53,011 nt of DNA from a virus. This document shows positions 6,203 to 46,421 of this stretch, piece after piece. The first letter of the stretch is position 1, and every line of letters begins with the position of its first letter. The stretch covers positions 1 through 53,011 of IMG/VR virus record IMGVR_UViG_3300020725_000001; one strand, written 5' to 3'. The notes beneath the pieces are model-generated. The model made no database searches. It was not told the origin of the DNA and was given only the letters and a program-made list of their open reading frames with translations. Made by a program: the position numbers and the translations under genes.

Positions 6203-6221
6203 GGTAGTGACAGCACGCTTT
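6203..6221 (+). promoter_or_regulatory. Late element 1 (variant GGTAGTGACA) before terminase
   Basis: It matches GGTCGTGACRNNANNMTWW except for A at position 4. A GCAC-GCTTT-GTGC hairpin (6213-6225) overlaps its downstream half. It lies between a terminator and the terminase small subunit, with 28 nt between element and ATG. Confidence 0.55.
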
Positions 6222-6249
6222 GTGCATTAGAAGCTTATAGAGTTTAGAA

Positions 6250-6813
6250 ATGGCATATAGTGAAAAGGATTGGGAGGTTGTTAGGGCTTATTATCAGCAA
6301 GGACTATCCCTAGCAGAAATTATTGAAACGCCTGAGGTAAAGAAGATAGGCATTACCGATAGAAGCGGCATAAGCAAGAAAGCTAAAAAAGAGGGCTGGC
6401 TAAAAGGAAAAAATTCAACACTTGTTGAAAAAGTTATTCAATCTAAACAACTAGATAAAGAGATAGAAAAAGAAAAATCAACCTTTAATTCAACAGAGCT
6501 TGATATTTTCAACAGCATTGTTGACAAAAAGCTCCGTGATCTTGAATTGTGCGATAAGGCGCAAAGGCTGGTTATAGATATGACTATTAAAAAGCTTAAA
6601 CAGATTGGCATTGATAATGTTTCTTTTCAGGACATTAATGCTGCTGGATCTGCGATTCAAAAGTCTCGTGATGGTTTGGTTGGTAAAGAGCCTACTACAG
6701 TGATTAACAACAGCAATACGGCTATTGCACAAAGTCATTCAGTGTCATTGGTCAATATCCCTGCGCATGAACTTAAGCTGGCTTACTACGGCGAACTAGA
6801 TGATGAATATTGA
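6250..6813 (+). CDS. Terminase small subunit
   Basis: This 187-residue helical protein lies directly upstream of, and overlaps, the terminase large subunit gene. Its N-terminal 50 residues (DWEVVRAYYQQGLSLAEIIE, then TDRSGISKKAKKEGW) have the HTH layout of small terminases that bind the packaging site. A Lys/Glu-rich helix pair in the middle would be the oligomerisation region. The assignment rests on the N-terminal pattern and on gene order. Confidence 0.75.
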   Translation: MAYSEKDWEVVRAYYQQGLSLAEIIETPEVKKIGITDRSGISKKAKKEGWLKGKNSTLVEKVIQSKQLDKEIEKEKSTFNSTELDIFNSIVDKKLRDLELCDKAQRLVIDMTIKKLKQIGIDNVSFQDINAAGSAIQKSRDGLVGKEPTTVINNSNTAIAQSHSVSLVNIPAHELKLAYYGELDDEY

Positions 6814-8413
6814 TAGAAAAGAAATTGATCTTAAAGCCAGATTGATTAACGAATTTGATTTTTTTATAAGGTATTTCTTTAAGCATCAATTTGGGCGTAA
6901 ATTCATTATGACGCCTCATTTTTATGAGATCATTGATGCGTTGGTTGAGGTGGTAAAAGGTAATATTACTCGACTTATTATCAATATCCCCCCTAGATAT
7001 GGGAAAACAGCCGTAGCCGTTAAAATGTTTGTGGCATGGGTATTGGCTAATAATCCGGGCGCTAAATTTATTCATTTATCGTTTTCTGATGATCTAGCGC
7101 TAGATAATTCAAGTGAGATAAGAGAGCTAATCAAGTCTGAAGAGTACCAGCGTATATTTGGGGTGGCTATTAGAACTGATTCGGATAGTAAAAAGAAATG
7201 GTACACGATGGCAGGTGGCGGCTTGTATGCAACGTCTACTGGTGGGCCAATTACTGGATTCGGAGCTGGCGCTAAAACTCGTGAGAGGGCGGGTACAAAT
7301 AGTCCGTGTGATGGTTTTGAGGGTTGTCTCATACTTGATGACCCATTGAAGCCCGATGATGCATTCTCAGATACAATGAGAAGCCGCATTAATACCCGCT
7401 TTAATAACACTATTGCTTCGCGTGTTAACTCACCAACAACACCAATTATAGTGATAATGCAGCGTTTGCATGAAAATGATATGACAGGTTTTTTACTAGA
7501 AGGTGGTAGTGGTGAAGAATGGCATCATGTTTGTTTATCGGCTATTAAGCCTGATGGAACTGCTTTGTGGCCTGAGATGCACACTATAGAAAAACTAAGG
7601 GCAATGGAGCAAGCAGATCCCTATACATTTGCTGGCCAGTATATGCAGATACCTTCGCCTTTGGCGGGTGGTATTATCAAGCCGGACAATATTAGCGTTG
7701 TGCAGGCTATTCCGCATGGTGTGACCGAATGGGTGAGAGGTTGGGATTTTGCAGCTTCTACAACGGGTGATTTTACTGCTGGCGCTAAGATTGGACGCTT
7801 AGCTGATGGTCGGTGCATTATCGCTGATATGGTGCGCATAAGAGTGTCGCCTGATGAGCGAGATGCTGCATTGGTTAATACAGCGGCTCGTGATGGTGAT
7901 AACTGCCGCATATCTATTCCGCAAGATCCTGGGCAAGCGGGATTAACTCAGGTTAAATATTTGGTGCGTAGTCTGTCTGGATTTTCAGTTAAGGCTACAC
8001 CTGAGTCTGGTAATAAGGTGGTAAGGGCTGAGCCGTTTGCTGCTCAGATCAATGTCGGTAATGTGGTCATGCTTAAGGCTGATTGGAATGATGCGCTTAT
8101 CAGTGAGATGCGTATGTTTCCTAATGGTACGTTTGATGACCAAGTTGATGCGCTTTCTAGGGCGTTTTCAATGCTTATTGGCAATGAGCCCGCTATGATT
8201 TTCATTCCTGACGTAAGCAAGCCGGTTAATCCAGTGCAGGCACGCATATCAAAAGAAATGCCTGGGCTGCCTAGTGGTGTTATTGATGCAATTCAAGTGC
8301 CTGATGGAAACTTTTGCGGAAACTGCTCTGCGTATAGCGAGGGAAAGTGTTTAGATCGTGGGTTTTTGGTAGCTGTTCGTGATGTTGGGTGTCAATCATT
8401 TATACAAAGATAG
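6800..8413 (+). CDS. Terminase large subunit (packaging ATPase/nuclease)
   Basis: This 537-residue TerL drives DNA packaging and cuts the concatemer. The ATPase half has Walker A PPRYGKTAVA (about 64-72), Walker B CLILDDP (about 177-182) and the coupling motif IIVIMQRLHENDMTG. The RNase H-type nuclease half has GWDFAAS (near 315), QDPG and FDDQVDALS (about 444-452). An unusual C-terminal tail carries CGNCSAYSEGKCL and a final Cys, like a small zinc-binding knob. It overlaps the small subunit by 14 bp; ATG 6803 is an equal start candidate. Confidence 0.95.
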   Translation: MMNIDRKEIDLKARLINEFDFFIRYFFKHQFGRKFIMTPHFYEIIDALVEVVKGNITRLIINIPPRYGKTAVAVKMFVAWVLANNPGAKFIHLSFSDDLALDNSSEIRELIKSEEYQRIFGVAIRTDSDSKKKWYTMAGGGLYATSTGGPITGFGAGAKTRERAGTNSPCDGFEGCLILDDPLKPDDAFSDTMRSRINTRFNNTIASRVNSPTTPIIVIMQRLHENDMTGFLLEGGSGEEWHHVCLSAIKPDGTALWPEMHTIEKLRAMEQADPYTFAGQYMQIPSPLAGGIIKPDNISVVQAIPHGVTEWVRGWDFAASTTGDFTAGAKIGRLADGRCIIADMVRIRVSPDERDAALVNTAARDGDNCRISIPQDPGQAGLTQVKYLVRSLSGFSVKATPESGNKVVRAEPFAAQINVGNVVMLKADWNDALISEMRMFPNGTFDDQVDALSRAFSMLIGNEPAMIFIPDVSKPVNPVQARISKEMPGLPSGVIDAIQVPDGNFCGNCSAYSEGKCLDRGFLVAVRDVGCQSFIQR

Positions 8414-8420
8414 GAAAAGC

Positions 8421-8678
8421 TCAAAGTAGCTTAACCAGGGCTGCAACAATTCCGATAGCAAAAGCCATTAATGCGCCTTGTTTAATAATTAGTCGTTGTT
8501 CCATTTGAATTAAGCGCGTGTCTATATCTTTACGTAAATCGTCTATATCTCGTTTAGTTGATAATTCATGCTGTGATTCAACAATAACGCGTACAAAGGC
8601 ATCAGCCTGTTCTTGTGTAACGCCAACTGATTTTAATTTAATGACGGCTTCTTGGGTATCAAAAGTAATAGTGGTCAT
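8421..8678 (-). CDS. DUF1640-like membrane protein, dispersed copy F
   Basis: This 85-residue protein begins MTTITFDTQEAVIKLKSVGV, has a coiled coil (DIDDLRKDIDTRLIQMEQRL) and a C-terminal helix ending GIVAALVKLL. It is closest to array copy E, matching it almost throughout the last 45 residues. It is inserted in the opposite direction between terminase and portal, immediately before late element 2. AGGA precedes its ATG on the minus strand. Confidence 0.75.
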   Translation of the reverse strand: MTTITFDTQEAVIKLKSVGVTQEQADAFVRVIVESQHELSTKRDIDDLRKDIDTRLIQMEQRLIIKQGALMAFAIGIVAALVKLL

Positions 8679-8728
8679 ATTTTCCTCGAAGTTTTAATGA
8701 CAGCATGATCTTGTTAGGTATTATTATA

Positions 8729-8747
8729 GGTCGTGACACTACGATTA
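8729..8747 (+). promoter_or_regulatory. Late element 2 before portal
   Basis: This is a full match to GGTCGTGACRNNANNMTWW. It runs into a perfect 11-bp inverted repeat GATTACCAGAA/TTCTGGTAATC (8743-8753 and 8763-8773). The portal ATG is 30 nt beyond the element and has no clear Shine-Dalgarno, the last part of its leader being the 3' arm of the repeat. Confidence 0.65.
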
Positions 8748-8777
8748 CCAGAATAAATAATTTTCTGGTAATCAACT

Positions 8778-14919: not shown

Positions 14920-14938
14920 GGTCGTGACAATACGATTA
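14920..14938 (+). promoter_or_regulatory. Late element 3 before the tRNA genes
   Basis: This is a full consensus match. It shares the downstream half TACGATTA with element 2. The tRNA-Asn begins 14 nt beyond it, so here the element precedes an RNA gene rather than a protein gene. Confidence 0.6.
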
Positions 14939-14952: not shown

Positions 14953-15027
14953 TCCTTGATAGCTCAGTGGTAGAGCGGTTGACTGTTAATCAATTGGTCG
15001 GTGGTTCGAGCCCATCTCAGGGAGCCA
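14953..15027 (+). tRNA. tRNA-Asn (GTT)
   Basis: The 75-nt cloverleaf has acceptor TCCTTGA/TCAGGGA (one T-G pair), D-arm GCTC/GAGC, anticodon stem GTTGA/TCAAT (one G-T pair) with loop CTGTTAA (anticodon GTT at 14985-14987), T-arm GGTGG/CCATC around TTCGAGC, and an encoded CCA. Confidence 0.95.
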
Positions 15028-15096
15028 AAAAAAACGGCAATGCTGGAAGTCGGTAATGACCATGCGGATTCATGGACAAAGACAGTGTAATTTATA

Positions 15097-15172
15097 GGGG
15101 TCATAGCTCAGCTGATAGAGCGCTTGCCTTGCACGCAAGAGGTCGGGAGTTTGATCCTCCCTGGCTCCACCA
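15097..15172 (+). tRNA. tRNA-Ala (TGC)
   Basis: The 76-nt cloverleaf has acceptor GGGGTCA/TGGCTCC, D-arm GCTC/GAGC, anticodon stem CTTGC/GCAAG with loop CTTGCAC (anticodon TGC), a standard T-arm and an encoded CCA. The 69 nt separating it from tRNA-Asn hold only a small CCATG/CATGG hairpin. Confidence 0.95.
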
Positions 15173-15790: not shown

Positions 15791-15809
15791 GGTCGTGACA
15801 CCAGAATTT
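15791..15809 (+). promoter_or_regulatory. Late element 4 before the DUF5681-like gene
   Basis: This is a full consensus match, followed by the inverted repeat AATTTAA/TTAAATT (15805-15811 and 15820-15826). It lies 31 nt before ATG 15841, the same spacing as elements 1, 2, 5 and 10, which favours 15841 over the in-frame ATG at 15829. Confidence 0.65.
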
Positions 15810-16117: not shown

Positions 16118-16519
16118 ATGAGTAATTCATCAGAAAAAGATCATCCTTTTGTTGTAGGCAAGGCAGATTGCAAGGGAAATCCTGAAAAAGCATCGTCATT
16201 AAAGTTTGCTGGCCGCGAGTATCATGCCTCAGGCAAGTCCGGCAAATCAATTCACGACGATACACCGGTGCGTGAGTTTGAGCATGAAAGCGGACATAAG
16301 GTCTGGATGGATGATGCTGCGCGTGTTCATGCTAATAATGAGGATGAAGTTGATAGCTTGCGCCAAGATGCAGATAAGGGGCTGACTGAAGATACTAGCA
16401 AAACTGACAGCCAAGTTGATGGCAAGCGTCCAGGTAAAGACATTCCAGAGAAAATGACAAAGGCTTTGTTCTTTATGTCTGCTGATCAATCAGAGTTGTT
16501 TTTAAATCTGATTGATTGA
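16118..16519 (+). CDS. Hypothetical acidic protein upstream of the polyvalent protein
   Basis: This 133-residue protein has no recognised domain. The middle (FEHESGHKVWMDDAARVHA) and the Asp/Lys-rich linker (EDTSKTDSQVDGKRPGKDIP) look soluble. It sits 4 bp after the DUF5681-like gene and ends 4 bp before the polyvalent protein, so it is clearly in that operon. It may be a cargo or chaperone for the large protein; this is inference. Confidence 0.55.
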   Translation: MSNSSEKDHPFVVGKADCKGNPEKASSLKFAGREYHASGKSGKSIHDDTPVREFEHESGHKVWMDDAARVHANNEDEVDSLRQDADKGLTEDTSKTDSQVDGKRPGKDIPEKMTKALFFMSADQSELFLNLID

Positions 16520-16523
16520 GTTT

Positions 16524-19500
16524 ATGGCGCCCTTGATACTTTTATTTAAGTCCCACGTCAAAGGCTATACGCGTAAGGATGGGCATTATGTTAATCCTTA
16601 TACAAAAGATAACTCAGGAAGGCATGGGGTTCAGCACAGAGTTCCAGTAAAGAATAGTGTGCTTCAGTGGGCTGGGTTGGGCTTAAATCCCGTTGTTGCA
16701 GATTATTTTAAATTGCATACAAAGCATTCTGATCAATTTCCTGACGAAGCCTCTATGAGATCTCATGTTCAGTGGGTTATGGAGCATCCGCATGTATTTA
16801 TGCCAGCTACAAAAGATGGATATGTGATGTTTGTTCGTCGCGGAGCTTTAGACAAGTGTGTAGTTATTAACCCTGTTGTCAAGGGTGGGGCGAATGGATA
16901 TGTAGTTAGGTCAGCGTATATAATGAATGAGGATCAGCTAAAATCTTACATTAAAGCAGTATTCAAGTATCGAAAATATAACGTAAAAATTAGAAAGTCA
17001 ATCAGCGTCGGGGCGCTAAGTCCGAGCTTCTTGTCCGGTTCCGAATTATCAGAGCGATCAACAAGGTGGCTCCCCATTTCTCACGAAAAGGTTCAACTGA
17101 TTGCAAAATGCAATTTACCTGAAGATAGCAATTTAATCAAGTGGATGATTGAAAGCGGAATTAATTATAAAAATACAAGCTTTACTAAATCAGATATATC
17201 AATGGATAGGTACAGTTCACCATATGAGCTATCAGAATATCAAATAAAATCAGGCAATTATAAAAAACGATCAATTTCGTGGAATGGTTTGACTATCAAG
17301 ATAGAGAATGAGGCCGGGTCAGTTCGTAGCGGCCAAGATCCTAATGGCAAATTATGGGAAGTTCGCATGATTTACCCTTATGGTTATGTTAGTAATTCAA
17401 CGGGGGTTGATGGTGATGAGGTTGATATATATTTGGGCTTTAATCTTAATGCGCCAATAGTTTACATTGTTCACCAGCGAAAGGTGGGGGACTGGTCGGA
17501 ATACGACGAAGATAAGTGCATGATCGGCTTTGATTCTGAGGATGACGCAAGACAAGCATTTTTGCATCATTATGATGATCCTCGTTTTTTGGGCGAAATA
17601 ACAGCTATGTCTGTTGGCGAATTTGTTGATAAAGTAAAAGCCACCAACAAAAAACCAGCTATGATTAAAGCTTTGCCTGTAACTTTGTCAGAAAGGCTTG
17701 CTAAGGCTGGCTTTATCTGGCGTGAAGTACCCTTTACTCGTGAGTCATGGGATGGCGAGTTCCCAGGCAATATGGTTAAGTCGTTCATGGGTGATTTGAT
17801 AGAACTTCTCCCTGAAACGCTAGATTATCCTGACTATGGCTCATCACTCATTGGCGCATTAAAGCCAACAATAGAAAGCCCATTAATTATTCATCATGAG
17901 GTAGGTCAGGCTTCTTTTTTTCGAGCAATAATTAACGCAGACGGCTCAATACTAGGCTACTCTAAAGTAACGCTATGGAAAGGTTTTTCTCGTGTTGAGA
18001 TTATTCAAGATTTACCGGCTCTTGAAGGGTGTATTGACCATGGCATTAATGTCATTGCTGATTTCGTTGATGAGGGTCATGCCGTATTTAAATGCCTATC
18101 GCTGGGTAAATTTCTTGTCACTGATTTTGGTATCGCTTCACATTTAATGGATTGGGGTGTTGAGTTCTTTAAGTCTGATCATGGCGCTATACCAGATGGC
18201 GCAAGATGGATAACGGTTCATCCAAACGGCGAAGGCTCTAAAGGTGTTCCAATATTGGTGCAGCCTGCCAAGGATAATTCAGGTACGTTCCGAGTGGTGG
18301 GCGGCGCAGGTGGCAAACTTAATATGCTTAAGTTACGCGGTGTTAAGTCTGAAGCTGATTATAAACAGGAGCATTCAGAGCGTGCGCACAATAAACGATT
18401 AGTCGACAAAGAGCGTATAAGGCGTGATAAAGAGCTAGGCATACATGATGCAAAGACTCAGGCCAAAGAAAATATTAATGCTCAACGAAAGAAGTCGCAA
18501 AAAGATTTTATCAAAACTGTTGCTGATGCTATGGGTTGGAAGCATGAAGAAACAGAGCTAAATACATCCGGATTGTCAGAGCAAGCCGCTAAAAAGGCAG
18601 AGCTTAAGCATCATGCGGAATTATTGACCAGGGCTAAGGAAGCTGTCAATGTACAGCGTAAAATGCTGGTTGATAATGCTGATGCGCGGGCAGCTGCTGG
18701 TCTGGGCGTAATGCCGCTACATGATGAAAATGCGGCTTTAATTTCTGCTGATGATCTTGATCCGGTTCGTTTAACTGACAAGTCGGGTATTTCTCAAGAT
18801 TTTAAAAAGCGCGCTGAAAATGCTGGGCTGACGCAAGATAGTCTTGATTCAAAAGTCAGCGAAACCAAGACGACTGGCAAGACGGATGCACAAATTGAAA
18901 GAGGCCAGATAGCGCAAGATATTAAAGACGAGTTATCAAAGCTGCCAAAACCTGACTTAAATGCAAAAATAGTTGATGCTAAAAAAGCTGTTGAGCTGAT
19001 CAAGGCGCAAAAGAAATTAGCGGCCATGGAAAAAGCTGCGCGTGATGCAAACAAGGAGGTTAATAAAGCGACTGTAGAGCCTAAAGCCTATGTGTTAGCA
19101 ACCTCTGAGCCTGATGATAAGGTCGCGCTTAAGGCGATACATGACGATTTAAGTACATCTAAGGCCAAGGCCTTTTTAGCAGGTGTGCAAGCAGTAGGTG
19201 GAGAGGAGTCAATAGAAAGTCATGTCTCTACGGGCGCATATAATGTTATTAATGCGTTATCCCATGCAGTAGGCGGTGATTCTCTAATGGATAGATCAGT
19301 TATCGACGTGTTAGGAATTGCGGGCGCTGCTCAAGTGCTTGCAAGGCGTTTGCATTCTGATTACAAAGATAAGACTGATGATATTGCCAGCGGCGTTGAG
19401 GAATATCATGTGGCACATGCTCCGGAGTTACAGAGCGAAGCCCTAGCACAGGCTCAAGAGCTGCAGGACATAGCTAACAAGATTGAAATGGATCAGGCCG

Positions 19501-22500
19501 CAAACTCGCAAGACTTTGCTCATGCCTCTGGGCTGAATCATCAACGTAAAGAGCATTTAGCAACAGCACGTAAAGTCATGGGGCAAGCTCTAGGAGAAAT
19601 GGAAGCAAATGCGGCTATTTCTGCGGCACTGCGCGGTGGTAAGCGTGACTTTGTTCAGGTGTCCTTGGGCAAGTCTACATCAGAATCAGCTGTACAACAG
19701 CTATGGGCTTTGGGCTTAAATAATGACGACTTTAATCTGGATAAGGTGGCCGGAAATACTTTTGCAACCATTAAAGCTTCTGGCATGGACAAGCTTGCTA
19801 AACCTATCGACAAAGAGAATATGCAGCGTATAGATCGCAATCTATCTATTATGCGTGGTGATGAAGATGAGGATGATTGGCTGCCGCAAGGCTTCTCTAA
19901 GCGCCCTGACTTGGGTCTTAATTTTAAAGCTGGAGTTGCTCCGCAGCTATCGCAGCCTTTTGATGCTAAAGGTTCTAATTTAGCAGATTCAGTGCGTGAG
20001 TATATTGGTGGTCGCATGGCTGATGGGGATAGACCAGCTGATATATTGTCGGATCTAAATTCCTTGCCCTTTATGCTATCGGTGGGTGCTGATCGAGCTT
20101 CTGAATACAGAAAAGCCCTTAATGAGGCTATCCCTACTAAGAATTTTAATGGTAAGTTAATGCGAGTCGAGCATTTAGAACCCATATTTCAGCAATACGC
20201 TGATGATTATGTGGCTTCTAAATGGGGCGGTACGCGTTCAACGCTTAATAAACAAACCTTTGAGCCTGATGCGATTGCACAAGATGCGCTGCATAGGGCA
20301 TTAGCGTCTGAGCCTGCCGGTAAGATTGCTTATAAGCCTATTGGTGAGCTAACAGCGCAAGATCGATCAGCCTTGCGCAATTGGTTTTATAAAAATGTTG
20401 CTAAAGAATCACCAGAGCAAGCAGGGTTGCGTGAAAAAGCTGACAATCTTCAAAAGAATGAGCCCATTAAATTTACTGAGGATCTGTTTGGCGAGGTTTC
20501 GGAAAATCCAGCCTGGAAAGCATGGAAGAGTGACTACGATGAAGCGAGTGCAGTTGCGGCTGATGCGGGTTTAGATTGGGGTAAATACTCGCATTTAATG
20601 CGAGGTAGTGTTAGGGCTTTTGAGTCTATACAAGATTTAATCCGCTCAAAAGTCTCAGAGAGCTTTGCGCAAAACTATAATACACAACGTCCTGATGCTG
20701 CGTTAAAGATCGGCAAGACTATTGTAAGAAACAATCTTAATCATCTTGATGCTGTTGATCCTACTGAGCGTGAAAAGCGGCTAAAGGCTGAGCGTTCACT
20801 TATTGATTCTTTACGAGAGCGAGTACAAGGAAAATATTCGTCTGGATCTGTAGGCGACAAGATAGAGCAAGCCAAAGAGAAGCAAGCGGCTTATGGTCAA
20901 GCGCAGATGTCTTTATTTTCGTCTGAAGAAGATGACAATAAGGAGGCGCTAGCTTTAAAAGCGGATGAACGCAAAACCATAGGCCACGCCGCTGAAAACA
21001 TGATCAACAAAATGATGGGGGTAGTCGGTGCTAATTTTGAGCCTAATAAGCCAGTCAAGTTATTTAATCCGTCGATGTCCGGACCTGATGGCGTAAAGCG
21101 ACAAAGAGCCATCAAGCTAGTCGAAGCCAATAAGCGCGTAATGCTTGGGGCCGGAGTGGGTTCAGGCAAATCAGCTATGATGCTGGGCGCATTTTCTAGC
21201 CTGCATTCACAAGGCAAGATAAAAAAAGGCGTGATCTGCTGCCCAAGTATCGTGCAAGGACAAATGGGTGCTGAAGCCTTGCGCTTCTTAGAGGCTGGTA
21301 AATACAACTGGCATTGCAATCCTGGCGATTCCTTTGAAAGCCGTCTTGCTTCTTATAAAGATCCAGATAACCATTTTACCGTAGTCACACATCAATCTTT
21401 TCGTGATGATCTACTAAAAATGGCAAGTCTAAAGACCGGCGAAAGCACTGATGTAATTGCTGACAAAATGGGCGGCATGACGCAAAAGGAAAGGGCGAGC
21501 TATACCAAGGATGTGCTAGATCACCACGGCATTAACTTTGATTTCTCTGCGGTTGATGAAGGGCATAACCTGTTAGATCGTGAAGGTAAAGAAAACTCAC
21601 GCATGTCTAATGTGATTGGTGGGGTAACCGATAATACGCCTTACCATATTTCAGCAACAGCTGATCCTGTTAAAAATGATGCTTCTGAGGCATTTAGTGC
21701 GCTACAAAAGATGGACGGCGACCGTTATAACGATCGTGATGCGTTCATGCGGCGTTATGGTAGCGATACCCAAGCCGCTAAGCAGGGTTTGCAGAAAGAG
21801 TTAGCTAGGCATTTGTACGCTATGGAAGTTAAGCCAGATATTAGTGTGAACAAGCAACAGATTAAGGTGCCACAAACCGAGGCGCAACAAGAGGCACTGA
21901 AGACCGTAGAACAGCAAGCCGCTAGCTTACGCATTGCTAAAATGACTAATCAAGTCGATATAAAGACAGCTCAAGCTTTTGCACCCGCCATGTTTGATGG
22001 TGTACCAGAAGACCAGCATGAAGCCGTTGCAAAAAAGGTCGCTGATTCAGTCGGTATCATGAAGCAATCAGCTATTCGCAAGGTGCTAGATAATCATCCT
22101 GCTGCAGGAAAGCTTAATAAGTTGATTGAGATAGCTAATGGTAAGAAAGGACAGCAAGGCGTGGTCTTTGCTCACTCACTAGAGGCGGTCGAGAGCATTA
22201 GAAAGCGTTTAGAAGCAGAGGGTCATCGAGTCGTGACTATCTCCGGCAAGGATTCAGCAAAAGATAAGGCGGCAAAGATACAGGCCTTCAATCCTGATAA
22301 GGGCGATGCCAAAGCCGATATTATTGTCTGCTCTGATGCAGGAGCTACTGGCGCAAACCTTCAATCTGGTCGTTGGCTTGCGCAATATGATATTCCTCAG
22401 ACTGCTATGAACCACGCGCAACGTCAAGGCCGTATCAATCGAATTGGTCAAAAGAACGACATTGATTTAATTGATCTGGTTTCAGACCATGAATCAGATA

Positions 22501-22646
22501 AACGCGCACAAAGCCGACTCTCTAATAAGTACGCGCTACGAAATTTAATGACTACACCGCTAGATGCTATGGATGACAGCGGCTTAGGCTATTATTTAAA
22601 GCAACAAGGCATAGGTGCAGCTAAGCCACAAAGTGATTTATTTTAG
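16524..22646 (+). CDS. Giant polyvalent protein: BECR-like, pyrophosphatase-like and SF2 helicase domains
   Basis: The 2,040-residue protein starts with the linker YTRKDGHYVNPY seen in phage/plasmid polyvalent proteins. Residues about 64-140 (MRSHVQWVMEHPHVFMPAT, YVMFVRRGALDKCVVINPVV, YVVRSAY) resemble a BECR nuclease. Residues about 245-385 (GVDGDEVDIYLG, VYIVHQRKVGDWSEYDED, HHYDDPRFLGEI) match the InPase-like domain of such proteins. A long helical middle follows. The C-terminal third is an SNF2-like helicase: GAGVGSGKS (about 1545), DEGH (about 1678), SATADP, and QRQGRINRIGQ (about 1966). Such proteins are thought to be injected with DNA and act against host systems. TTG 16512 is an alternative start. 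Its stop shares a base with late element 5. Confidence 0.85.
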   Translation: MAPLILLFKSHVKGYTRKDGHYVNPYTKDNSGRHGVQHRVPVKNSVLQWAGLGLNPVVADYFKLHTKHSDQFPDEASMRSHVQWVMEHPHVFMPATKDGYVMFVRRGALDKCVVINPVVKGGANGYVVRSAYIMNEDQLKSYIKAVFKYRKYNVKIRKSISVGALSPSFLSGSELSERSTRWLPISHEKVQLIAKCNLPEDSNLIKWMIESGINYKNTSFTKSDISMDRYSSPYELSEYQIKSGNYKKRSISWNGLTIKIENEAGSVRSGQDPNGKLWEVRMIYPYGYVSNSTGVDGDEVDIYLGFNLNAPIVYIVHQRKVGDWSEYDEDKCMIGFDSEDDARQAFLHHYDDPRFLGEITAMSVGEFVDKVKATNKKPAMIKALPVTLSERLAKAGFIWREVPFTRESWDGEFPGNMVKSFMGDLIELLPETLDYPDYGSSLIGALKPTIESPLIIHHEVGQASFFRAIINADGSILGYSKVTLWKGFSRVEIIQDLPALEGCIDHGINVIADFVDEGHAVFKCLSLGKFLVTDFGIASHLMDWGVEFFKSDHGAIPDGARWITVHPNGEGSKGVPILVQPAKDNSGTFRVVGGAGGKLNMLKLRGVKSEADYKQEHSERAHNKRLVDKERIRRDKELGIHDAKTQAKENINAQRKKSQKDFIKTVADAMGWKHEETELNTSGLSEQAAKKAELKHHAELLTRAKEAVNVQRKMLVDNADARAAAGLGVMPLHDENAALISADDLDPVRLTDKSGISQDFKKRAENAGLTQDSLDSKVSETKTTGKTDAQIERGQIAQDIKDELSKLPKPDLNAKIVDAKKAVELIKAQKKLAAMEKAARDANKEVNKATVEPKAYVLATSEPDDKVALKAIHDDLSTSKAKAFLAGVQAVGGEESIESHVSTGAYNVINALSHAVGGDSLMDRSVIDVLGIAGAAQVLARRLHSDYKDKTDDIASGVEEYHVAHAPELQSEALAQAQELQDIANKIEMDQAANSQDFAHASGLNHQRKEHLATARKVMGQALGEMEANAAISAALRGGKRDFVQVSLGKSTSESAVQQLWALGLNNDDFNLDKVAGNTFATIKASGMDKLAKPIDKENMQRIDRNLSIMRGDEDEDDWLPQGFSKRPDLGLNFKAGVAPQLSQPFDAKGSNLADSVREYIGGRMADGDRPADILSDLNSLPFMLSVGADRASEYRKALNEAIPTKNFNGKLMRVEHLEPIFQQYADDYVASKWGGTRSTLNKQTFEPDAIAQDALHRALASEPAGKIAYKPIGELTAQDRSALRNWFYKNVAKESPEQAGLREKADNLQKNEPIKFTEDLFGEVSENPAWKAWKSDYDEASAVAADAGLDWGKYSHLMRGSVRAFESIQDLIRSKVSESFAQNYNTQRPDAALKIGKTIVRNNLNHLDAVDPTEREKRLKAERSLIDSLRERVQGKYSSGSVGDKIEQAKEKQAAYGQAQMSLFSSEEDDNKEALALKADERKTIGHAAENMINKMMGVVGANFEPNKPVKLFNPSMSGPDGVKRQRAIKLVEANKRVMLGAGVGSGKSAMMLGAFSSLHSQGKIKKGVICCPSIVQGQMGAEALRFLEAGKYNWHCNPGDSFESRLASYKDPDNHFTVVTHQSFRDDLLKMASLKTGESTDVIADKMGGMTQKERASYTKDVLDHHGINFDFSAVDEGHNLLDREGKENSRMSNVIGGVTDNTPYHISATADPVKNDASEAFSALQKMDGDRYNDRDAFMRRYGSDTQAAKQGLQKELARHLYAMEVKPDISVNKQQIKVPQTEAQQEALKTVEQQAASLRIAKMTNQVDIKTAQAFAPAMFDGVPEDQHEAVAKKVADSVGIMKQSAIRKVLDNHPAAGKLNKLIEIANGKKGQQGVVFAHSLEAVESIRKRLEAEGHRVVTISGKDSAKDKAAKIQAFNPDKGDAKADIIVCSDAGATGANLQSGRWLAQYDIPQTAMNHAQRQGRINRIGQKNDIDLIDLVSDHESDKRAQSRLSNKYALRNLMTTPLDAMDDSGLGYYLKQQGIGAAKPQSDLF

Positions 22647-22664
22647 GTCGTGACTAAATACTAT
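22646..22664 (+). promoter_or_regulatory. Late element 5 before the methyltransferase
   Basis: GGTCGTGACT plus AAATACTAT matches with T at position 10. It begins on the last base of the preceding TAG stop. A CCCAT/ATGGG inverted repeat (22665-22669 and 22681-22685) follows, and its 3' arm would cover the G-rich stretch upstream of the methyltransferase ATG (30 nt beyond the element). Confidence 0.6.
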
Positions 22665-24397: not shown

Positions 24398-24416
24398 GGT
24401 CGTGACAAAATAATAA
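24398..24416 (+). promoter_or_regulatory. Late element 6 before the prohead protease (short spacing)
   Basis: GGTCGTGACA plus AAATAATAA is a full match. The protease ATG (24422) follows after only 5 nt and no Shine-Dalgarno is present, so initiation just downstream of the element would give a near-leaderless mRNA. Confidence 0.6.
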
Positions 24417-27774: not shown

Positions 27775-27791
27775 AATATAAATTTTTAAAT

Positions 27792-27818
27792 GCCTAATTT
27801 TTATTAGGCGTTTTATTT
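27792..27818 (+). terminator. Rho-independent terminator
   Basis: GCCTAAT and ATTAGGC form a perfect 7-bp stem with a TTTT loop, followed by GTTTTATTTT. Late elements 7 and 8 come right after it. Confidence 0.75.
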
Positions 27819-27823
27819 TGCGT

Positions 27824-27842
27824 GGTCGTGACACGATGATGT
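27824..27842 (+). promoter_or_regulatory. Late element 7 (first of a tandem pair)
   Basis: GGTCGTGACA plus CGATGATGT fits the consensus except for G at position 18. It follows a terminator by 5 nt and is 48 bp upstream of element 8. A CGAT/ATCG repeat (27834-27848) follows. Confidence 0.6.
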
Positions 27843-27871: not shown

Positions 27872-27890
27872 GGTCGTGACGAGAGTATAT
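27872..27890 (+). promoter_or_regulatory. Late element 8 (second of a tandem pair, short spacing)
   Basis: GGTCGTGACG plus AGAGTATAT matches the consensus. The ATG at 27893 follows after 2 nt, so this site is of the near-leaderless class while element 7 would supply a 50-nt leader for the same gene. Confidence 0.6.
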
Positions 27891-39094: not shown

Positions 39095-39113
39095 GGTCGT
39101 GACAACAAACTAT
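39095..39113 (+). promoter_or_regulatory. Late element 9 (short spacing)
   Basis: GGTCGTGACA plus ACAAACTAT is a full match. The ATG at 39118 is 4 nt beyond. A CTATC-GTCAT-GATAG hairpin (39110-39124) places the start codon in its loop and stem. There is no Shine-Dalgarno. Confidence 0.65.
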
Positions 39114-40219: not shown

Positions 40220-41929
40220 ATGAGTGTATTTTTTAATGGAAGATTATGGGTTTCGCCCGTAACTGCATCGGTTGTTGATGACTCTGCAATGAATAACACC
40301 AATGTTGGCGTAAGCAATGTCTTAGCTATCATTGGTAAATCTGAAGGTGGACAGCCTTTTACAGCGCTAAGCTTTGGTTCTGCAACAGAAGCAAGAGCAA
40401 CATTGATTTCAGGAGAGTCACTAAAAGCTATTGAGAATGCTTTTGATCCTTCTGCACAAACAACTGGACCATCAACCATCATTTTTGTACGCGTTAATCC
40501 TGCATTGCAATCCAGTTTAAATTTGTTAGATGCAAATGGTAATGTGGCAATTAATCTTGTGTCGCAAGACTGGGGTCTGCATACTAATGGCATAAAAGTT
40601 AAGATTGAATCTGCATCTTTGGTCGGCAGCAAGGTAACTAGCCAATTTGGCAATAATTATTATTCTGCTGACAATATCCATAAGAATGCTTTAAGTGTTC
40701 ATTATACTGGAGCTGCTGCTACAGCGACTATTGCTATTAATGCAGATACAGTTACTTTGGTTTATGACTCAACAACAACAGCCATTGACTTAAATACCTA
40801 TAAAACAGTTGGAAGTCTAGTTGATAGAATCAATGCAGAGGCTGGTTTTTCTGCTGCTGTATTGGATGGTAATATTGAGACGCCTGCTTTAAATGGACTT
40901 GATTTTGTAGCTGCTCAAGATGTTAAATCTACTTCATTCACTGTGACTGGAAACTTGCAAGCTATAGTTGATTGGATGAATAGCATGGGCGAAGGTTATG
41001 TAACTGCAACTCGTGCAATTAATGCTGGCTTAGTTCCTGTCAATATTCCATTCAGTTATTTAACTGGCGGCACTGATGGCATGGTAACCATGAATGAATG
41101 GCAACAAGCTTATGATGCTCTTCAATCTGTAGATGCTCAATGGGTAGTGCCTATCTCTTCAAATCCTGCACTTCATGCTATGAATGATACGCATTGTTCT
41201 TATATGTCAAACATTGCACGCATGGAAAGACGCGGCATTGTTGGTGGTGATATAGGTACAACAGATCTGCAAGCCATTGCTGCCGCAAAAATGCTGAACA
41301 GCGATAGAACTTCTTATACGCATCTAGGTTTTTATGATTATGATGTGAATGGTAATCTAACACTATACCCTCCTTATATTATGGCTGGATTGTTAGCCGG
41401 CATGTTCTCAGGTGTTAACCCTGGCACTGCTTTGACAAACAAAGAAGTAAAAATAAGAGGCATCGAGCGTAGTCTGCGCAATCCTACTGATACTGATATT
41501 TTAATTAATGGCGGTGTATTGTGTGTTGAAAACACCAAGAAAGGCTATAAGGTTGTTAAATCGATCACTACTTGGCTGATTAACAACAATTATAACCGTG
41601 TTGAGGTTTCAGTCGGTGTGGCTTGCGACTTTACATCGAGAGCAGTAAGAGATGCGGTTGATGATTTGCGCGGTGCTAAAGGTTCGCCATCATTATTGGC
41701 TGATGCTGTATCGAGAGCTGAAACAGCTCTTAGACAGCTATCTGTTCCTGAGCCTATGGGTCCTGGCGTTCTTGTTGGTGACAAATTAAACCCTCCATAC
41801 AAAAATATTACAGCGACTTTATCGGGCGATGTGTTACGTATCGAGTATCAAGCAAGCCCAGTTATTCCAGCTAACTACATCTTGTTAGTGATGCACGCCG
41901 TACCTTACTCTGGATCTGCTAGTTTGTAA
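40220..41929 (+). CDS. Tail sheath protein
   Basis: The 569-residue protein has the sheath layout: N-terminal SNVLAIIGKSEGGQPFTAL, a variable beta domain, the hallmark VPVNIPFSYLTGGTDG before a Rossmann-like section (WQQAYDALQSVDAQWVVPIS), and a conserved C-terminal domain (LINGGVLCVENTKKGYKVVK). The sheath contracts on infection and defines a myovirus. It is closed by a strong terminator at 41944-41970. Confidence 0.9.
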   Translation: MSVFFNGRLWVSPVTASVVDDSAMNNTNVGVSNVLAIIGKSEGGQPFTALSFGSATEARATLISGESLKAIENAFDPSAQTTGPSTIIFVRVNPALQSSLNLLDANGNVAINLVSQDWGLHTNGIKVKIESASLVGSKVTSQFGNNYYSADNIHKNALSVHYTGAAATATIAINADTVTLVYDSTTTAIDLNTYKTVGSLVDRINAEAGFSAAVLDGNIETPALNGLDFVAAQDVKSTSFTVTGNLQAIVDWMNSMGEGYVTATRAINAGLVPVNIPFSYLTGGTDGMVTMNEWQQAYDALQSVDAQWVVPISSNPALHAMNDTHCSYMSNIARMERRGIVGGDIGTTDLQAIAAAKMLNSDRTSYTHLGFYDYDVNGNLTLYPPYIMAGLLAGMFSGVNPGTALTNKEVKIRGIERSLRNPTDTDILINGGVLCVENTKKGYKVVKSITTWLINNNYNRVEVSVGVACDFTSRAVRDAVDDLRGAKGSPSLLADAVSRAETALRQLSVPEPMGPGVLVGDKLNPPYKNITATLSGDVLRIEYQASPVIPANYILLVMHAVPYSGSASL

Positions 41930-41943
41930 TTGATTGGCATCTA

Positions 41944-41970
41944 AAAAAGCCCTCCTAGTGAGGGCTTTTT
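41944..41970 (+). terminator. Rho-independent terminator after the sheath gene
   Basis: AAAAAGCCCTC and GAGGGCTTTTT form a perfect 11-bp stem around CTAGT. It ends the sheath unit before late element 10. Confidence 0.9.
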
Positions 41971-42004
41971 ATTATTATTTTAATGCTTTAATTTTAGTTT
42001 AAGA

Positions 42005-42023
42005 AGTCGTGACAGCAACATAA
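42005..42023 (+). promoter_or_regulatory. Late element 10 before the second polyvalent protein
   Basis: AGTCGTGACA plus GCAACATAA differs from consensus only at position 1. A long hairpin CATAA-AGAAT/ATTCT-TTATG (42019-42044) overlaps its end. It lies 29 nt before ATG 42053. Confidence 0.6.
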
Positions 42024-42052
42024 TCAGAATTTATTCTTTTTATGGTGCGACC

Positions 42053-44209
42053 ATGACTATCATCCTTTTGAGCAAAGCATTTGTTAAAGAACATCAACGT
42101 CACAAAAAAGATGGTTCCGTTTATACAGTTTTGGCGCATTACAATAAGCGTGTTAAGAAAAATACCGAACATGCACCAGAACACGGTCATGATCTTAGCC
42201 ACTTAAATGATGATGACAAGGCACGTTTTAATCAAATGCACGCTGAGCAACATTTAGCTAAGCATTATGATGAGCACGCGATTAAGCAGCAGTTACAAGA
42301 CAGTAGGGCTGAGCACGACAAGCTTATTCGAGATGCTGATGTACAAGACAAGTTGGGAGATCATAAGGCTGCAACTAGGCTACGCAACAAGGCGATTAAA
42401 GTTAATCAGCACATGATGCGCTTTCAGCGGCAATTATCCAAACTAGAAGAGACAATACAAGGTATTGGTAAAATGAAGGAGAAGTTAGTCGCAGGAAGCG
42501 GTGAATTAGTTCATGATGCGGCGGCTCATGCACATTATGTGAGTAAGCTAGGAGCTAAGTTTAAAGGCCGCATTATGTTCATTAAAAAGGTCACAAAACC
42601 TAAGCAGCCTTTTATACCGACTCATACGCTATCAGATGGCGTGCCTGCCAGGCATGTTGAAGGCAATATTTATATCGATAAAGACGGCGATGAGGTGCAA
42701 GATTATTATGCTGAGCCGGTTGATAAAATAGATGATTCAAAGGGTAGCGATAAGGTAGACCCTCATAGTTTTATCACTGCGCCTGATGGCTCAAAAGACT
42801 TTGGTGAAATTACATCAGAGCAAGCTGAAAAAATAGGAAATAAATCAGGGAAAATAAGGCTACAGCAAGGATTTCATAATGATGATGACGGTAGTGGATA
42901 TGGAAAGATTCATATTGACAGGGAATTGAGGAAAGATCAGCTTAAAGACAATGGTTATCAGTCGACAGAAGAATTAGTCGATGACGTTGCTAAAAACCAT
43001 AATGCTATCTATCAAGGCAAGGGAGGTTCATATATTTTAGCTAAGCTAAATGGTAAGGCTAAAATAGCTTATGTACTGGTTAAGGAAGGTAACGATGGTA
43101 TTTTTTACAGTATTGGAAGCGGTTTAGTTACAAGAGATGGTTATCTTAAAAACAAGCCGTTGCTTTGGGAAAGGGCGCAGACCAATCAACTCAAAGAGTC
43201 CCCTAGCGCGGTCACAGGCAAAAGCAACGGCCCGAATAAAACTATACCCCAATTACCAAAAAATGCAACAGAAAAAGACAGTCCCAAAGAAGGCGAGCGC
43301 AACGCCGAGGGCTTGGTGTTCCATGATGGGCGCTGGCATAGGGAAGGCGATAATGCGGATAAGAGCGCAAGATTCCATGCAGACATTAAAGCTCTGAAAG
43401 AAACAAATTTTAAATACAAAGCAGGTGATAAGGTAATTGACAAAGAATCTGGTAAAAAATATATGGTGTTAAGCTCATATATTCAAGATGGACAGGTTAG
43501 ATATACTGTTTATCCTCCAGGCAAAAAATCATCTGTTGGCCACCATATTTGGATTAAAGAGTCTGACTTGGTTAATAGTGGGAATGATGAAGCCAAAAAA
43601 CCAGCCAAGGTTGTTTCTATCAAAGAGGTTGCTCGTAAGCCTGAAGCTGAAAAATTAGCGGATGAAGACAATCCCAATAGCCCTAACTATCGATTCCGTG
43701 ATACTGGCTATATAGGCGGCAGTCGTAAAGAAGATGCGGCGTTAATGATTAGGTCTGCGGCTAAAGGCGGGGTTTTAGTCAGATCAACAGCCATTGACTG
43801 GGACGAGATAGAAAAAAATCCACGGGAAGCGCATCAGTTAATCACTAAATCAAATTTGTTCGGCAAAGTAGATTGGGATAGTTTAAAAGTAGAGGGTATG
43901 GAGCCTAGCGCCGGATTTTTAGTTGATAGAGTCTATGCTAGCGTCGCTAAAGAACCGGAAGATAATGCGCCTATGCGTAAGGATTATGCAGTGGGTATAG
44001 AAACTCTGCGTGATCGCATGGAGGCATGCAAAACACCTGATGAAGTCGTTAAGGTGCTTGCTGAGATTAGGGGCGAATATGAAGGCACTATGCTTTCTGC
44101 TACTGAGTCAGAGGAATATCAAAAGGCCAATGATGAAGTAAACAGGCTTCGTGGCATATTAAGAGCGGCTAATGATGAAAAAGATGTTTTTTTTTCAGAG
44201 ATGGTATAG
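42053..44209 (+). CDS. Polyvalent protein, N-terminal part, with BECR-like region
   Basis: The 718-residue protein starts with a linker of the polyvalent type (AFVKEHQRHKKDGSVYTVL), then a charged helical region. Residues about 250-380 (GEITSEQAEKIGNKSGKIRL, SGYGKIHIDRE, GYLKNKPLLWE) recall barnase/EndoU-like BECR nucleases. A small SH3-like part (FKYKAGDKVIDKESGKKYMV) and a helical tail ending EKDVFFSEMV follow. The tail is cut by a frame change at T9 (44187-44195); the next gene continues naturally from DEKDVFF to QRWYSAQINAN. It may therefore be the first part of a 1,260-residue protein. Confidence 0.7.
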   Translation: MTIILLSKAFVKEHQRHKKDGSVYTVLAHYNKRVKKNTEHAPEHGHDLSHLNDDDKARFNQMHAEQHLAKHYDEHAIKQQLQDSRAEHDKLIRDADVQDKLGDHKAATRLRNKAIKVNQHMMRFQRQLSKLEETIQGIGKMKEKLVAGSGELVHDAAAHAHYVSKLGAKFKGRIMFIKKVTKPKQPFIPTHTLSDGVPARHVEGNIYIDKDGDEVQDYYAEPVDKIDDSKGSDKVDPHSFITAPDGSKDFGEITSEQAEKIGNKSGKIRLQQGFHNDDDGSGYGKIHIDRELRKDQLKDNGYQSTEELVDDVAKNHNAIYQGKGGSYILAKLNGKAKIAYVLVKEGNDGIFYSIGSGLVTRDGYLKNKPLLWERAQTNQLKESPSAVTGKSNGPNKTIPQLPKNATEKDSPKEGERNAEGLVFHDGRWHREGDNADKSARFHADIKALKETNFKYKAGDKVIDKESGKKYMVLSSYIQDGQVRYTVYPPGKKSSVGHHIWIKESDLVNSGNDEAKKPAKVVSIKEVARKPEAEKLADEDNPNSPNYRFRDTGYIGGSRKEDAALMIRSAAKGGVLVRSTAIDWDEIEKNPREAHQLITKSNLFGKVDWDSLKVEGMEPSAGFLVDRVYASVAKEPEDNAPMRKDYAVGIETLRDRMEACKTPDEVVKVLAEIRGEYEGTMLSATESEEYQKANDEVNRLRGILRAANDEKDVFFSEMV

Positions 44210-45836
44210 CGCTCAGATTAATGCCAACAAGGTTGGCTATGAGCAAGAAGCTAGAAAAAGACGCAAGTGGAAGCCTAGTCCTGAGCTAGATGCGCGCTAT
44301 GCTGAATTAAGAGGTATTGAATCTCAATATAAAAAAGATTATATGGATTATTTAAGCGCACACCCAGAGCTTAAGTCAGTTCCAAGGAACAAGATTGATG
44401 GCATCTATATGAATTTTGACAATGAACTTGAGCATAATTTGCGACAAGCAAGAGGCAGGGCTAATACTATTCTTAACTCAGCTAAAGCTAAAAACCTCTA
44501 TGAAAATCCAGTAACAAGAGCGTGGATTTCTCTTGGGCCTAAGTTTCATGCGGTTCTTAATTATCGTCAATACAAAGGTTCTGGCGCTTTTGGTGGTCAT
44601 GTGACTAGCGCAAAGACTGGAAAAATAAATGATTGGTCATGGGCAGAATCAAGCGGCGCTACAAAAGCCCCTAGATCTACTGAAGCACAGGTTAAATTCC
44701 AGCTTAAAGTGGCTGATAGCTATGATCGAATCGGTGGGGCGGATATTAGTAGTGACTCAACAAGCTCGCTTAAAGACATGTTTAATTTACGTGATGTGCA
44801 GTCGGGTAATTGGGTATTAAAAGACATTAATTCAGCTAAATTTCATGTGCAAAGATCGGCAGAGGCTTTTAGTGATTTAGCTGATATCCTTGGCTCAGAC
44901 AAAGAAAAAGTGTCCATGAATGGCAGGCTTGCTATGGCATTTGGTGCGCGTGGCAAAGGTAATGCTGGCTTTGGTGGTGCAGCAGCTGCTCATTACGAGC
45001 CTGTGCAGAGAATTATCAATCTAACCAAGATGGGCGGAGGCGGATCTCTAGCGCATGAGTGGTTTCATGCTATGGATAATATGACCAGTGCCGCTGTCAA
45101 TGGAGTTGATGGCAGTGCTAAAGACTTTGTATCTGAAAACTTAGACTTGTTGCCGCAGGGTGAGTTGCGCAATGCTTGGGGCAATCTTATGCAGGCCATA
45201 AGCCATGGCGATCATTATGCCACCAAGAAAATTGCCTATACAGATAAAGACTATAGGCTAGCAATACATAATATTGATCGTCCATCACCAGGTAAATTAG
45301 CCGCAATGATTAAGGATGCGCCAGATGTCCATGCCGCTGTTAGGGCTGTTGAGAGTTATTTAGGTGACTCAACTAGCAAAAGAAGCATCAAGAACATGAA
45401 TGATTGGATAAAAGTTGCCGCTGCGTATCATGATAAGAATGCGGCCGGTGGAAGTGCTTTTGTAAAAGCCGGTGCGCCTATGTCTTCATTTGCTGCTGAA
45501 GCTAGGTCTTTAGATGGTGGCGTTGCTGGTAAGTTTTGGTCGCAGTCGGCAGAAATGGCGGCTAGAGCTTTTCAAGCCTATGTTGAAGATAAGCTTCAAT
45601 CTATGGATAGAAAGAATGACTATCTATCAGCATTTGCCGATAACAAATATTATAAAGATCCTATATTTGGCGATACCTATCCCTTCCCGGAGGGTGAAGA
45701 GCGTAAGGCTATTAATGCATCATTTGATGGCCTTATGGCGGCTATGAAAAAAGAAAATGTCTTGGCAAAGGCGGCAAATGCTTTTTCTAAACCCATGATC
45801 TTACTCAATGTCAGAGTTAGGCGGGCAGTTGCGTAA
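44172..45836 (+). CDS. LPD1-like zincin metallopeptidase, C-terminal part of the polyvalent protein
   Basis: This 554-residue frame overlaps the previous one by 38 bp. It has the layout of LPD1-containing proteins: FNLRDVQSGNWVLKDINSA, AMAFGARGKGNAGFGGAAAA, HYEPVQRIINLTKMGGGGSL and the zinc-binding AHEWFHAMDN (HExxH). SQSAEMAARAFQAYVEDKL supplies a downstream Glu helix. The predicted activity is a zinc-dependent protease delivered or expressed with other polyvalent domains. Separate initiation (ATG 44172, 44175 or 44184) or fusion through slippage on T9 are both possible. Confidence 0.8.
   Translation: MMKKMFFFQRWYSAQINANKVGYEQEARKRRKWKPSPELDARYAELRGIESQYKKDYMDYLSAHPELKSVPRNKIDGIYMNFDNELEHNLRQARGRANTILNSAKAKNLYENPVTRAWISLGPKFHAVLNYRQYKGSGAFGGHVTSAKTGKINDWSWAESSGATKAPRSTEAQVKFQLKVADSYDRIGGADISSDSTSSLKDMFNLRDVQSGNWVLKDINSAKFHVQRSAEAFSDLADILGSDKEKVSMNGRLAMAFGARGKGNAGFGGAAAAHYEPVQRIINLTKMGGGGSLAHEWFHAMDNMTSAAVNGVDGSAKDFVSENLDLLPQGELRNAWGNLMQAISHGDHYATKKIAYTDKDYRLAIHNIDRPSPGKLAAMIKDAPDVHAAVRAVESYLGDSTSKRSIKNMNDWIKVAAAYHDKNAAGGSAFVKAGAPMSSFAAEARSLDGGVAGKFWSQSAEMAARAFQAYVEDKLQSMDRKNDYLSAFADNKYYKDPIFGDTYPFPEGEERKAINASFDGLMAAMKKENVLAKAANAFSKPMILLNVRVRRAVA
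44187..44195 (+). other. T9 slippage tract joining two frames
   Basis: Nine T lie where the upstream frame (GAT GTT TTT TTT TCA) and the downstream frame (TTT TTT TTT CAG) overlap. Loss of one T, by transcriptional slippage or as a sequencing error, would fuse the two frames into one continuous protein. Confidence 0.55.
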
Positions 45837-45839
45837 TTT

Positions 45840-46301
45840 TTAATCATCAGGCAGCCAGTCGGTAGAAAGTACATCATCGATAGACCACGGGCAGTTTTGC
45901 GGAAAGTTGTCTAGGTTGGTTTCTTTTTCTGCAAGCAATCTTCCGTCTAGGTAAGCATCATCAAAGCGATCTTCTTCAATGAAGAAAGCCTTAAGGCTGG
46001 GCGTTCTTTTAAGTCTGAGCTGTATGCGCTTTCGTTGTTCTTTTATGGTCAGTGTCCAACTGCTTGATCTGCGTTCAGGTTGATACTGGTATTTCAACAA
46101 ATGGCCGATGAGTACGGCCATTCTGTTCTCAAGTTCTCTTGCTTCACTTTTTCCCACGTCGTTTATTTCATCCGCTATATGTTCTAGGTCGAGCAGGTCA
46201 AAACGCCCTGCGCGGATAAGGTCAGCTTGCTCTCTAGCCCAAGCAACAATGTCTTGCTGATAGGTAGCTAAGGATTGTTTGTCAAAAGCTATGGTAGACA
46301 T
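45840..46301 (-). CDS. DUF29-family protein
   Basis: This 153-residue protein has the DUF29 pattern: YQQDIVAWAREQADLIRAGR, FDLLDLEHIADEINDVGKSE, NRMAVLIGHLLKYQYQPERR, SSWTLTIKEQRKRI and a C-terminal CPWSIDDVLSTDWLPDD. DUF29 proteins are common in cyanobacteria and some gammaproteobacteria; their function is unknown. It is oriented against the tail genes, ends 4 bp from the LPD1-like gene and is followed on its other side by late element 11. The start is ATG 46301. Confidence 0.85.
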   Translation of the reverse strand: MSTIAFDKQSLATYQQDIVAWAREQADLIRAGRFDLLDLEHIADEINDVGKSEARELENRMAVLIGHLLKYQYQPERRSSSWTLTIKEQRKRIQLRLKRTPSLKAFFIEEDRFDDAYLDGRLLAEKETNLDNFPQNCPWSIDDVLSTDWLPDD

Positions 46302-46402
46302 GATTATGCTTACTCCAATTAATTCATATTTAATGTATTGATTGTACCCCAAAAGAAACAAATTACAGGCAGTGTTTAATTAATTAATTTAACACTCAAA
46401 AT

Positions 46403-46421
46403 GGTCGTGACAGCACCCTTT
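46403..46421 (+). promoter_or_regulatory. Late element 11 before the tail tube
   Basis: GGTCGTGACA plus GCACCCTTT is a full match. A perfect AGACGTT/AACGTCT hairpin (46422-46428 and 46436-46442) follows directly. The ATG lies 37 nt beyond and has its own GTGGAG ribosome site. Confidence 0.65.

Follow-up and report, generated by a model that had tools for sequence, protein, structure and literature searches.

The 53,011-nucleotide stretch analyzed here (the window; positions 1 to 53,011 of IMG/VR virus record IMGVR_UViG_3300020725_000001) is a 53-kb virus record encoding a terminase, portal, head protease, major head protein, tail sheath, and lysis genes. It carries eleven intergenic copies of a short element which, judged from sequence and placement, are close to certain to be the late promoters of this phage. 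The explanation that we favor, and consider fairly probable as a whole, is that transcription starts at base 23 of the element, that about half of the resulting mRNAs are leaderless, and that the upstream half of the element, GTCGTGAY, is read by two adjacent phage-encoded proteins, referred to here as A1 and A2. A preliminary description of the window had proposed a dedicated phage late promoter, and this view is strongly supported by the intergenic, plus-strand bias of the element, its conservation across a phage lineage, a fixed geometry relative to start codons, and one copy that precedes tRNA genes and not an ORF.

The element in the window and its relatives

The string GTCGTGAC is present 11 times on the plus strand of the window and not at all on the minus strand, compared with 0.38 copies expected from shuffles, among which the maximum is 3. 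Ten of these copies correspond to sites of the preliminary description; the remaining copy is coding, at 22230 inside a giant open reading frame (ORF), and the other described site, at 6203, is GTAGTGAC, one base removed from GTCGTGAC. To avoid circularity, the window was left out of a weight matrix trained on 155 sites from other, related phages. The 11 best matches of this matrix in the window, with scores of 13.5 to 21.6 bits, are exactly the 11 sites described, all of them intergenic and on the plus strand of a scored region of which just 6.8% is intergenic. The 12th-best match is coding and scores 10.7 bits, and best scores in 20 random windows range from 6.2 to 13.9. The proposal therefore survived a scan in which matches in coding regions might have rivaled those at gene starts, and the coding GTCGTGAC at 22230, which scores only 3.8 bits, falls outside the extended pattern, as had been noted. 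The ORF in which it lies (16512-22646; 2,044 amino acids) matches phage DNA helicase and DarB-like families, and the internal copy is not a promoter.

Element positions are counted here from the first G of the GTCGTGAY core, such that those of the preliminary description are one higher. In its numbering, GTGAC, A at 13, A/C at 16, and T at 17 were correctly given as present in 11 of 11 copies. The 19-bp extent assigned to the element holds for the core and not for the ends: the leading G is missing from one copy (site 42005 starts with A) and is G in 34% of relatives, and position 18, described as A/T, is G in 44% of them. Because they are not conserved in relatives, the first G and the last A/T bases reflect the local composition of an AT-rich genome. 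The conserved core is 16 bp, GTCGTGAY-NNN-A-NN-M-T. Among 167 aligned GTCGTGAC sites, information resides in GTCGTGAC, A12 (89%), and T16 (89%), and weakly in A/C at 15 and G/A at 9, with next to none upstream of the core or at positions 27 to 33.

The window head protein is 48 to 50% identical to homologues in Touem01 (Pseudomonas), PHB04 (Bordetella), Mecenats66 (Morganella), Dolphis, and ST4. Gathering relatives by this protein yielded 49 IMG/VR loci, which together with Touem01 span 42 to 71% GC, and nearly all of them have GTCGTGAC on the late strand. The full pattern, GTCGTGACNNNANNNT, is found in 34 of the 38 relatives searched whole, nearly always confined to a single strand (0 to 1 for a reversed-string control). 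PHB04 has 10 copies and, allowing T at position 8, there are 12 in Dolphis, 8 in ST4, 7 in fHe-Yen8-01, and 13 in Touem01. The element is conserved across a lineage of ~90 kb myoviruses (PHB04, Touem01, Dolphis, ST4, fHe-Yen8-01, and many IMG/VR genomes) and is largely confined to it. A scan of IMG/VR with GTCGTGACNNCANNNTNNNNNCATG, the pattern of the leaderless sites described below, returned at least 119 stretches, 98 of which hold core proteins of the lineage, with several recognizable as lineage genes among the other 21; a scrambled control returned 30 stretches, none with core proteins. Two IMG/VR records (G039 and G042; loci L133 and L143) have 25 and 19 promoter copies, on both strands, and relatives of this kind may use the promoter beyond the late operon. 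Literature searches with the motif letters gave chance matches only, among the matches listed, and a term search of the Mecenats66 paper found no promoter.

Predicted transcription start and leaderless mRNAs

Of the 273 distinct sites that have both A12 and T16, 132 are followed by an ORF-opening ATG at position 23 (97 sites) or 24 (35 sites). For the head protease, the portal, and a conserved 276-amino-acid protein, the ATG is at about 23 to 24 in most genomes, with conserved N termini in support. Shine-Dalgarno-like sequences accompany just 4 of 91 leaderless-type sites, compared with 28 of 49 leadered sites and 78 of 185 control genes. The 130 sites lacking an ATG at 23 or 24 have C at 22 in 44% of cases and A at 23 and 24 in 34 to 35%, which is the base pattern of a start site. 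Because of these two patterns, ATG at 23/24 and C22/A23-24 in the other sites, we place the start at base 23, and therefore T16 at -7, A12 at -11, and GTCGTGAY at -22 to -15. Transcription thus likely starts 6 to 7 nucleotides after the conserved T, at about position 24 in the earlier numbering, and not just after position 19.

The two bases that matter most in a sigma70 -10 element are A at -11 and T at -7, and the conserved A and T, four bases apart and with the inferred start 6 to 8 nucleotides beyond the T, have the corresponding geometry. The preliminary description had reported no consistent sigma70 -10 located 17 nucleotides downstream; this is so, as positions 27 to 33 are uninformative, yet a -10-like A-11/T-7 pair lies within the motif itself. 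TTGACA-like -35 sequences at a spacing of 15 to 19 bp are absent (2.75 matches, compared with 2.74 in shuffles).

Because a start at 23 coincides with the ATG at 23/24, about half of the late mRNAs are likely to be leaderless. If true, the mRNAs of many virion genes, including that of the head protease, would be translated without a leader, contrary to expectation for proteobacterial phage genes that are highly expressed; we found no paper in the open-access literature on leaderless late genes in such phages.

Hairpins at leadered sites

At the leadered sites, RNA folds more strongly than shuffles when it begins at position 17 (mean z, -1.2) but not when it begins at 23 (z, 0.0). Strong inverted repeats often begin at positions 16 to 18, and some include the ribosome-binding site (RBS) or end in a T run. 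Upstream of the element, terminator-like hairpins precede sites 27824 and 42005 (Table 1); the preliminary description had remarked that many copies follow a terminator or a counter-oriented insert. In phage T4, a hairpin at gene e silences read-through transcripts, with related cases at soc, 49, and I-TevI (PMC3014915). A similar arrangement may exist at many sites here, in which the hairpins could be formed only by read-through RNA, the promoter start lying inside the 5' arm.

Candidate readers A1 and A2

The conserved genes of near-complete, motif-bearing genomes encode structural and packaging proteins, a large helicase, and a single-stranded DNA-binding protein (SSB), together with the adjacent A1 and A2; A1 is present in all 15 near-complete relatives. 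In the window, the first element closely follows the A1 and A2 genes, which are not themselves preceded by one. The invariant residues are C18, C30, C51, C54, C77, C80, C93, C96, N98, R99, and E102 in A1, and H9, C14, C32, C35, C47, C49, and C62 in A2, and the cysteine spacing suggests that both proteins bind zinc. Neither has a significant match in Pfam, NCBIfam, PHROGs, or PDB sequences. Their models are confident (predicted local distance difference test scores of 91.9 for A1, with AlphaFold2, and 91.7 for A2) but have no significant PDB fold match; the best structural neighbors of A2 are zinc-ribbon subunits of RNA polymerases I, II, and III, although not significantly so, and the sole significant BFVD match of A1 is a protein that the tables consulted do not name.

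When records are chosen by A1 alone, 37 of 40 contain GTCGTGACNNNANNNT and one more contains GTCGTGAT. Among the remaining two is G035, which has TTCGGGAC in place of the pattern at two sites. It belongs to an A1 clade (L097-L101) without GTCGTGAC, in which the two TTCGGGAC sites have A12/T16 and one has an ATG at the same spacing. As a natural change of specificity, G035 could show which residues of A1 and A2 read DNA.

Full motifs in bacterial-genome loci chosen by A1 number 35 on the strand of A1 and 6 on the opposite strand, with four control strings giving 0 to 2 per strand. Loci from Pseudomonas, Halomonas, Methylobacterium, and Citrobacter encode a fusion of A1 with an A2-like ribbon (probability of 100% for the N-terminal, A1 part; 83%, P 1e-5, for the C-terminal, A2-like part), which suggests that A1 and A2 work jointly. 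The operon of the fused gene is preceded by the element, with a hairpin after the element, in L254 and L239. A1-like ORFs of ~300 amino acids with the A2-like zinc ribbon fused are seen in chromosomal elements at L231, L232, L237, L238, L240, and L254, the first of which adjoins rpoD- and dnaG-like genes, a phage-type primase, and a lysin-like gene. By analogy with P4, which carries Delta, such chromosomal elements may be phage satellites equipped with the late regulator of a helper.

Some A1 neighbors in isolates, at or near the A2 position (Dolphis gp83, ST4_027/ST4_028), are annotated as "DNA repair helicase" or "chromosome segregation protein," names that are most likely wrong. Dolphis gp117, ST4_109, and fHe-Yen8-01 gene 129 are very large proteins annotated as ADP-ribosyltransferase; modification of host RNA polymerase by these, in the manner of T4 Alt, would fit a late switch.

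That A1 and A2 are the readers of GTCGTGAY is plausible, and we rather favor it. Made from genes directly upstream of the first promoter that themselves lack the element, they would recognize GTCGTGAY at -22 to -15 in place of a -35, and A-11 and T-7 would form a minimal -10 element opened by the host RNA polymerase. As an activator or specificity factor, A1/A2 would thereby switch the host polymerase to the late genes. About half of the promoters would start transcripts at, or within one base of, the A of the start codon, producing leaderless mRNAs for the head protease, for the portal in many relatives, for the 276-amino-acid protein, and for others. The remaining sites would be leadered, and in many of these read-through RNA would fold into a hairpin just after the T, such that upstream transcripts are silent or terminated; a promoter starting inside the 5' arm would escape the hairpin, and read-through RNA would not. 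A bolder version, to which we give somewhat less than even credence, is that A1 and A2 form a new, non-sigma class of phage promoter-specificity factor, a two-protein zinc-cysteine complex that binds at -22 to -15 and replaces -35 recognition. This complex would make leaderless expression systematic for virion genes in proteobacteria, and phage-like chromosomal elements, possibly satellites, would have captured it as a single fused protein.

Such a promoter class, common to a large and barely studied lineage of proteobacterial myoviruses, would make late operons readable from sequence, and would give a likely function to two conserved families that have no library name and are called hypothetical, "chromosome segregation," or "DNA repair helicase" in isolates. 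It also points to a means of steering host RNA polymerase without a recognizable sigma factor.

Several observations weigh against this explanation. A1 resembles neither sigma factors nor any solved structure, and the case for its proposed role is built from co-occurrence, position, and zinc-cysteine character; within one lineage, A1 and the element may co-occur simply through shared descent. The motif-poor relatives G016 and Mecenats66 have A1 as well, and in these the promoter would have diverged or been lost. At the leadered sites, moving the start from 17 to 23 increases RBS accessibility by a mean of just 0.05, and the gain exceeds 0.15 in 8 of 49 sites compared with 4% of controls. As a strong gain in RBS exposure is seen in just these eight sites, the role of the hairpins is mixed and not uniform.

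The alternative that survives best, although we think it unlikely, is that the promoter is as described but is read by another phage protein, either an undetected divergent sigma factor or some other regulator, and that A1 and A2 do something else. Only genomic evidence links A1/A2 to the element, further regulators, AraC-like ones among them, are encoded by near-complete relatives, and sigma factors of the phiEco32 type can diverge strongly, to 15% identity (PMC8948821). However, sigma region 2 (Sigma70_r2) was found in none of the 15 near-complete relatives, in a search whose control was positive in 10 of 14 genomes, and Sigma70_r4 matches are scattered, exceeding the cut-off in one relative only. 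Moreover, the conserved genes other than A1, A2, and SSB are all structural, packaging, or large helicase genes. A phage-specific sigma factor, one of the readers suggested in the preliminary description, thus loses ground, and its proposal of an activator fares better, together with that of a non-canonical specificity factor.

Considerably less probable is that A1/A2 is a promoter-loaded antiterminator resembling lambda Q, with the element upstream of the -10 acting like a Q-binding site. Q-binding sites lie between -35 and -10, which the element at -22 to -15 resembles, and terminator-like hairpins follow several sites; the promoters, however, are many and dispersed where one late promoter would be expected, and have no -35 element.

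Other readings of the element

The preliminary description had also considered a single-subunit RNA polymerase. A promoter for a polymerase of this T7-like or of a giant-phage type, with transcription starting at 17 directly after the conserved T (cf. the AR9 pattern AACA-N6-TA/G), would account for conservation that stops at position 16 and for hairpins that often begin at 16 to 18. We nonetheless judge it improbable, marginally more so than antitermination, as the geometry disfavors it: a start at 23 is indicated by the ATG at 23/24 and by the C22-A23 signature, the A12/T16 spacing is that of A-11/T-7, and several hairpins resemble terminators and, with a start at 17, would stop the promoter's own RNA. 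PF00940 polymerase matches are lacking from the 15 relatives, a weak argument because the control search also gave no match.

An RNA-level signal for translation or processing, suggested by the short, fixed distance at which half of the sites lie from start codons, is very improbable as a replacement for the promoter. One site precedes tRNAs, some directly follow terminator-like hairpins, the A/T spacing matches a -10, and RNA that includes the element is more, not less, structured around the start. Lastly, an ordinary sigma70 promoter, with GTGAC(A) as its -35 hexamer and its -10 about 17 bp downstream of this, fits three window sites (8733, 14924, and 42009) but is scarcely credible and was set aside, since positions 27 to 33 are unconserved (0.00 to 0.07 bits) and such a -10 would fall inside the gene in the leaderless class.

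Sites in the window

The 11 promoter elements and the A1 and A2 genes are listed in Table 1. The tRNA-Asn and tRNA-Ala genes (14953-15172) apparently have a late-type promoter of their own; no tRNA-linked site other than that of the window was found in the relatives.

Table 1. Promoter elements and candidate reader genes in the window, with matrix scores and predicted transcription starts.
Feature	Coordinates	Strand	Score (bits)	Predicted +1	Context
A1	5312..5842	+			176-amino-acid protein; eight invariant cysteines, CVSCYNREREV-GKNAKG motif; candidate promoter-specificity or activator protein
A2	5839..6144	+			101-amino-acid zinc-ribbon-like protein directly after A1; candidate A1 partner
Promoter element, variant GTAGTGAC	6204..6219	+	13.5	~6226	Upstream of gene 6250 (helix-turn-helix protein, likely small terminase) and terminase large subunit (TerL)
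Promoter element	8730..8745	+	21.6	~8752	Before portal gene (ATG 8778); inverted repeat begins directly after element (fold, -15.0 kcal/mol)
Promoter element	14921..14936	+	20.4	~14943	Before tRNA-Asn (14953) and tRNA-Ala (15097)
Promoter element	15792..15807	+	20.9	~15814	Before gene 15829 and helicase-like giant ORF 16512
Promoter element	22647..22662	+	14.6	~22669	At giant ORF stop; upstream of DNA methyltransferase gene 22695
Promoter element	24399..24414	+	17.6	~24421	Before head maturation protease (ATG 24422, element position 24); predicted leaderless
Promoter element, first of tandem pair	27825..27840	+	20.7		After terminator-like hairpin 27788-27813
Promoter element, second of tandem pair	27873..27888	+	16.6		ATG 27893 at element position 21; predicted nearly leaderless
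Promoter element	39096..39111	+	17.7	39118	Before conserved 276-amino-acid gene (ATG 39118, element position 23); predicted leaderless; same geometry in orthologues of most relatives
Promoter element	42006..42021	+	20.2	~42028	Before gene 42053; after terminator-like hairpin 41944-41970
Promoter element	46404..46419	+	20.6	~46426	Before virion structural gene (46459) and lysis genes; hairpin AGACGTT/AACGTCT after element

Comparison with known systems

The promoters of the phiEco32 sigma factor gp36 (tAATGTAtA; PMC8948821) are similar in being single compact elements without a -35 before phage genes, with the start 6 to 8 bp downstream. Their sequence is unrelated, however, and their reader is of the sigma family, which was not found in the relatives here. 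T4 late promoters, read by gp55/gp33, have TATAAATA at -10 (PMC2988020), and are likewise dispersed, lack a -35, and depend on a small pair of phage proteins, the role proposed here for A1/A2. They differ in that the T4 TATAAATA contrasts with the consensus GTCGTGAYNNNANNMT here, which extends to -22, and in that gp55 is a diverged member of the sigma family, whereas A1 and A2 are zinc-cysteine proteins without detected sigma similarity.

The P2 Ogr and P4 Delta zinc-finger late activators are, like A1 and A2, small cysteine-rich phage proteins, and A1/A2 are proposed to be late activators too. P4 Delta has two domains, which the A1-A2 fusion in chromosomal elements recalls. Ogr sites lie far upstream, whereas the element here is at -22 to -15, and no match to the Ogr_Delta zinc finger (PF04606) exceeded the cut-off in the 15 relatives. 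The late promoters of AR9 (AACA-N6-TA/G; PMC5312081) are also short, bipartite, and phage specific. AR9 uses its own multisubunit polymerase and has leadered mRNAs, with untranslated regions of 26 to 491 nucleotides (PMC5312081), in contrast to the leaderless mRNAs predicted here.

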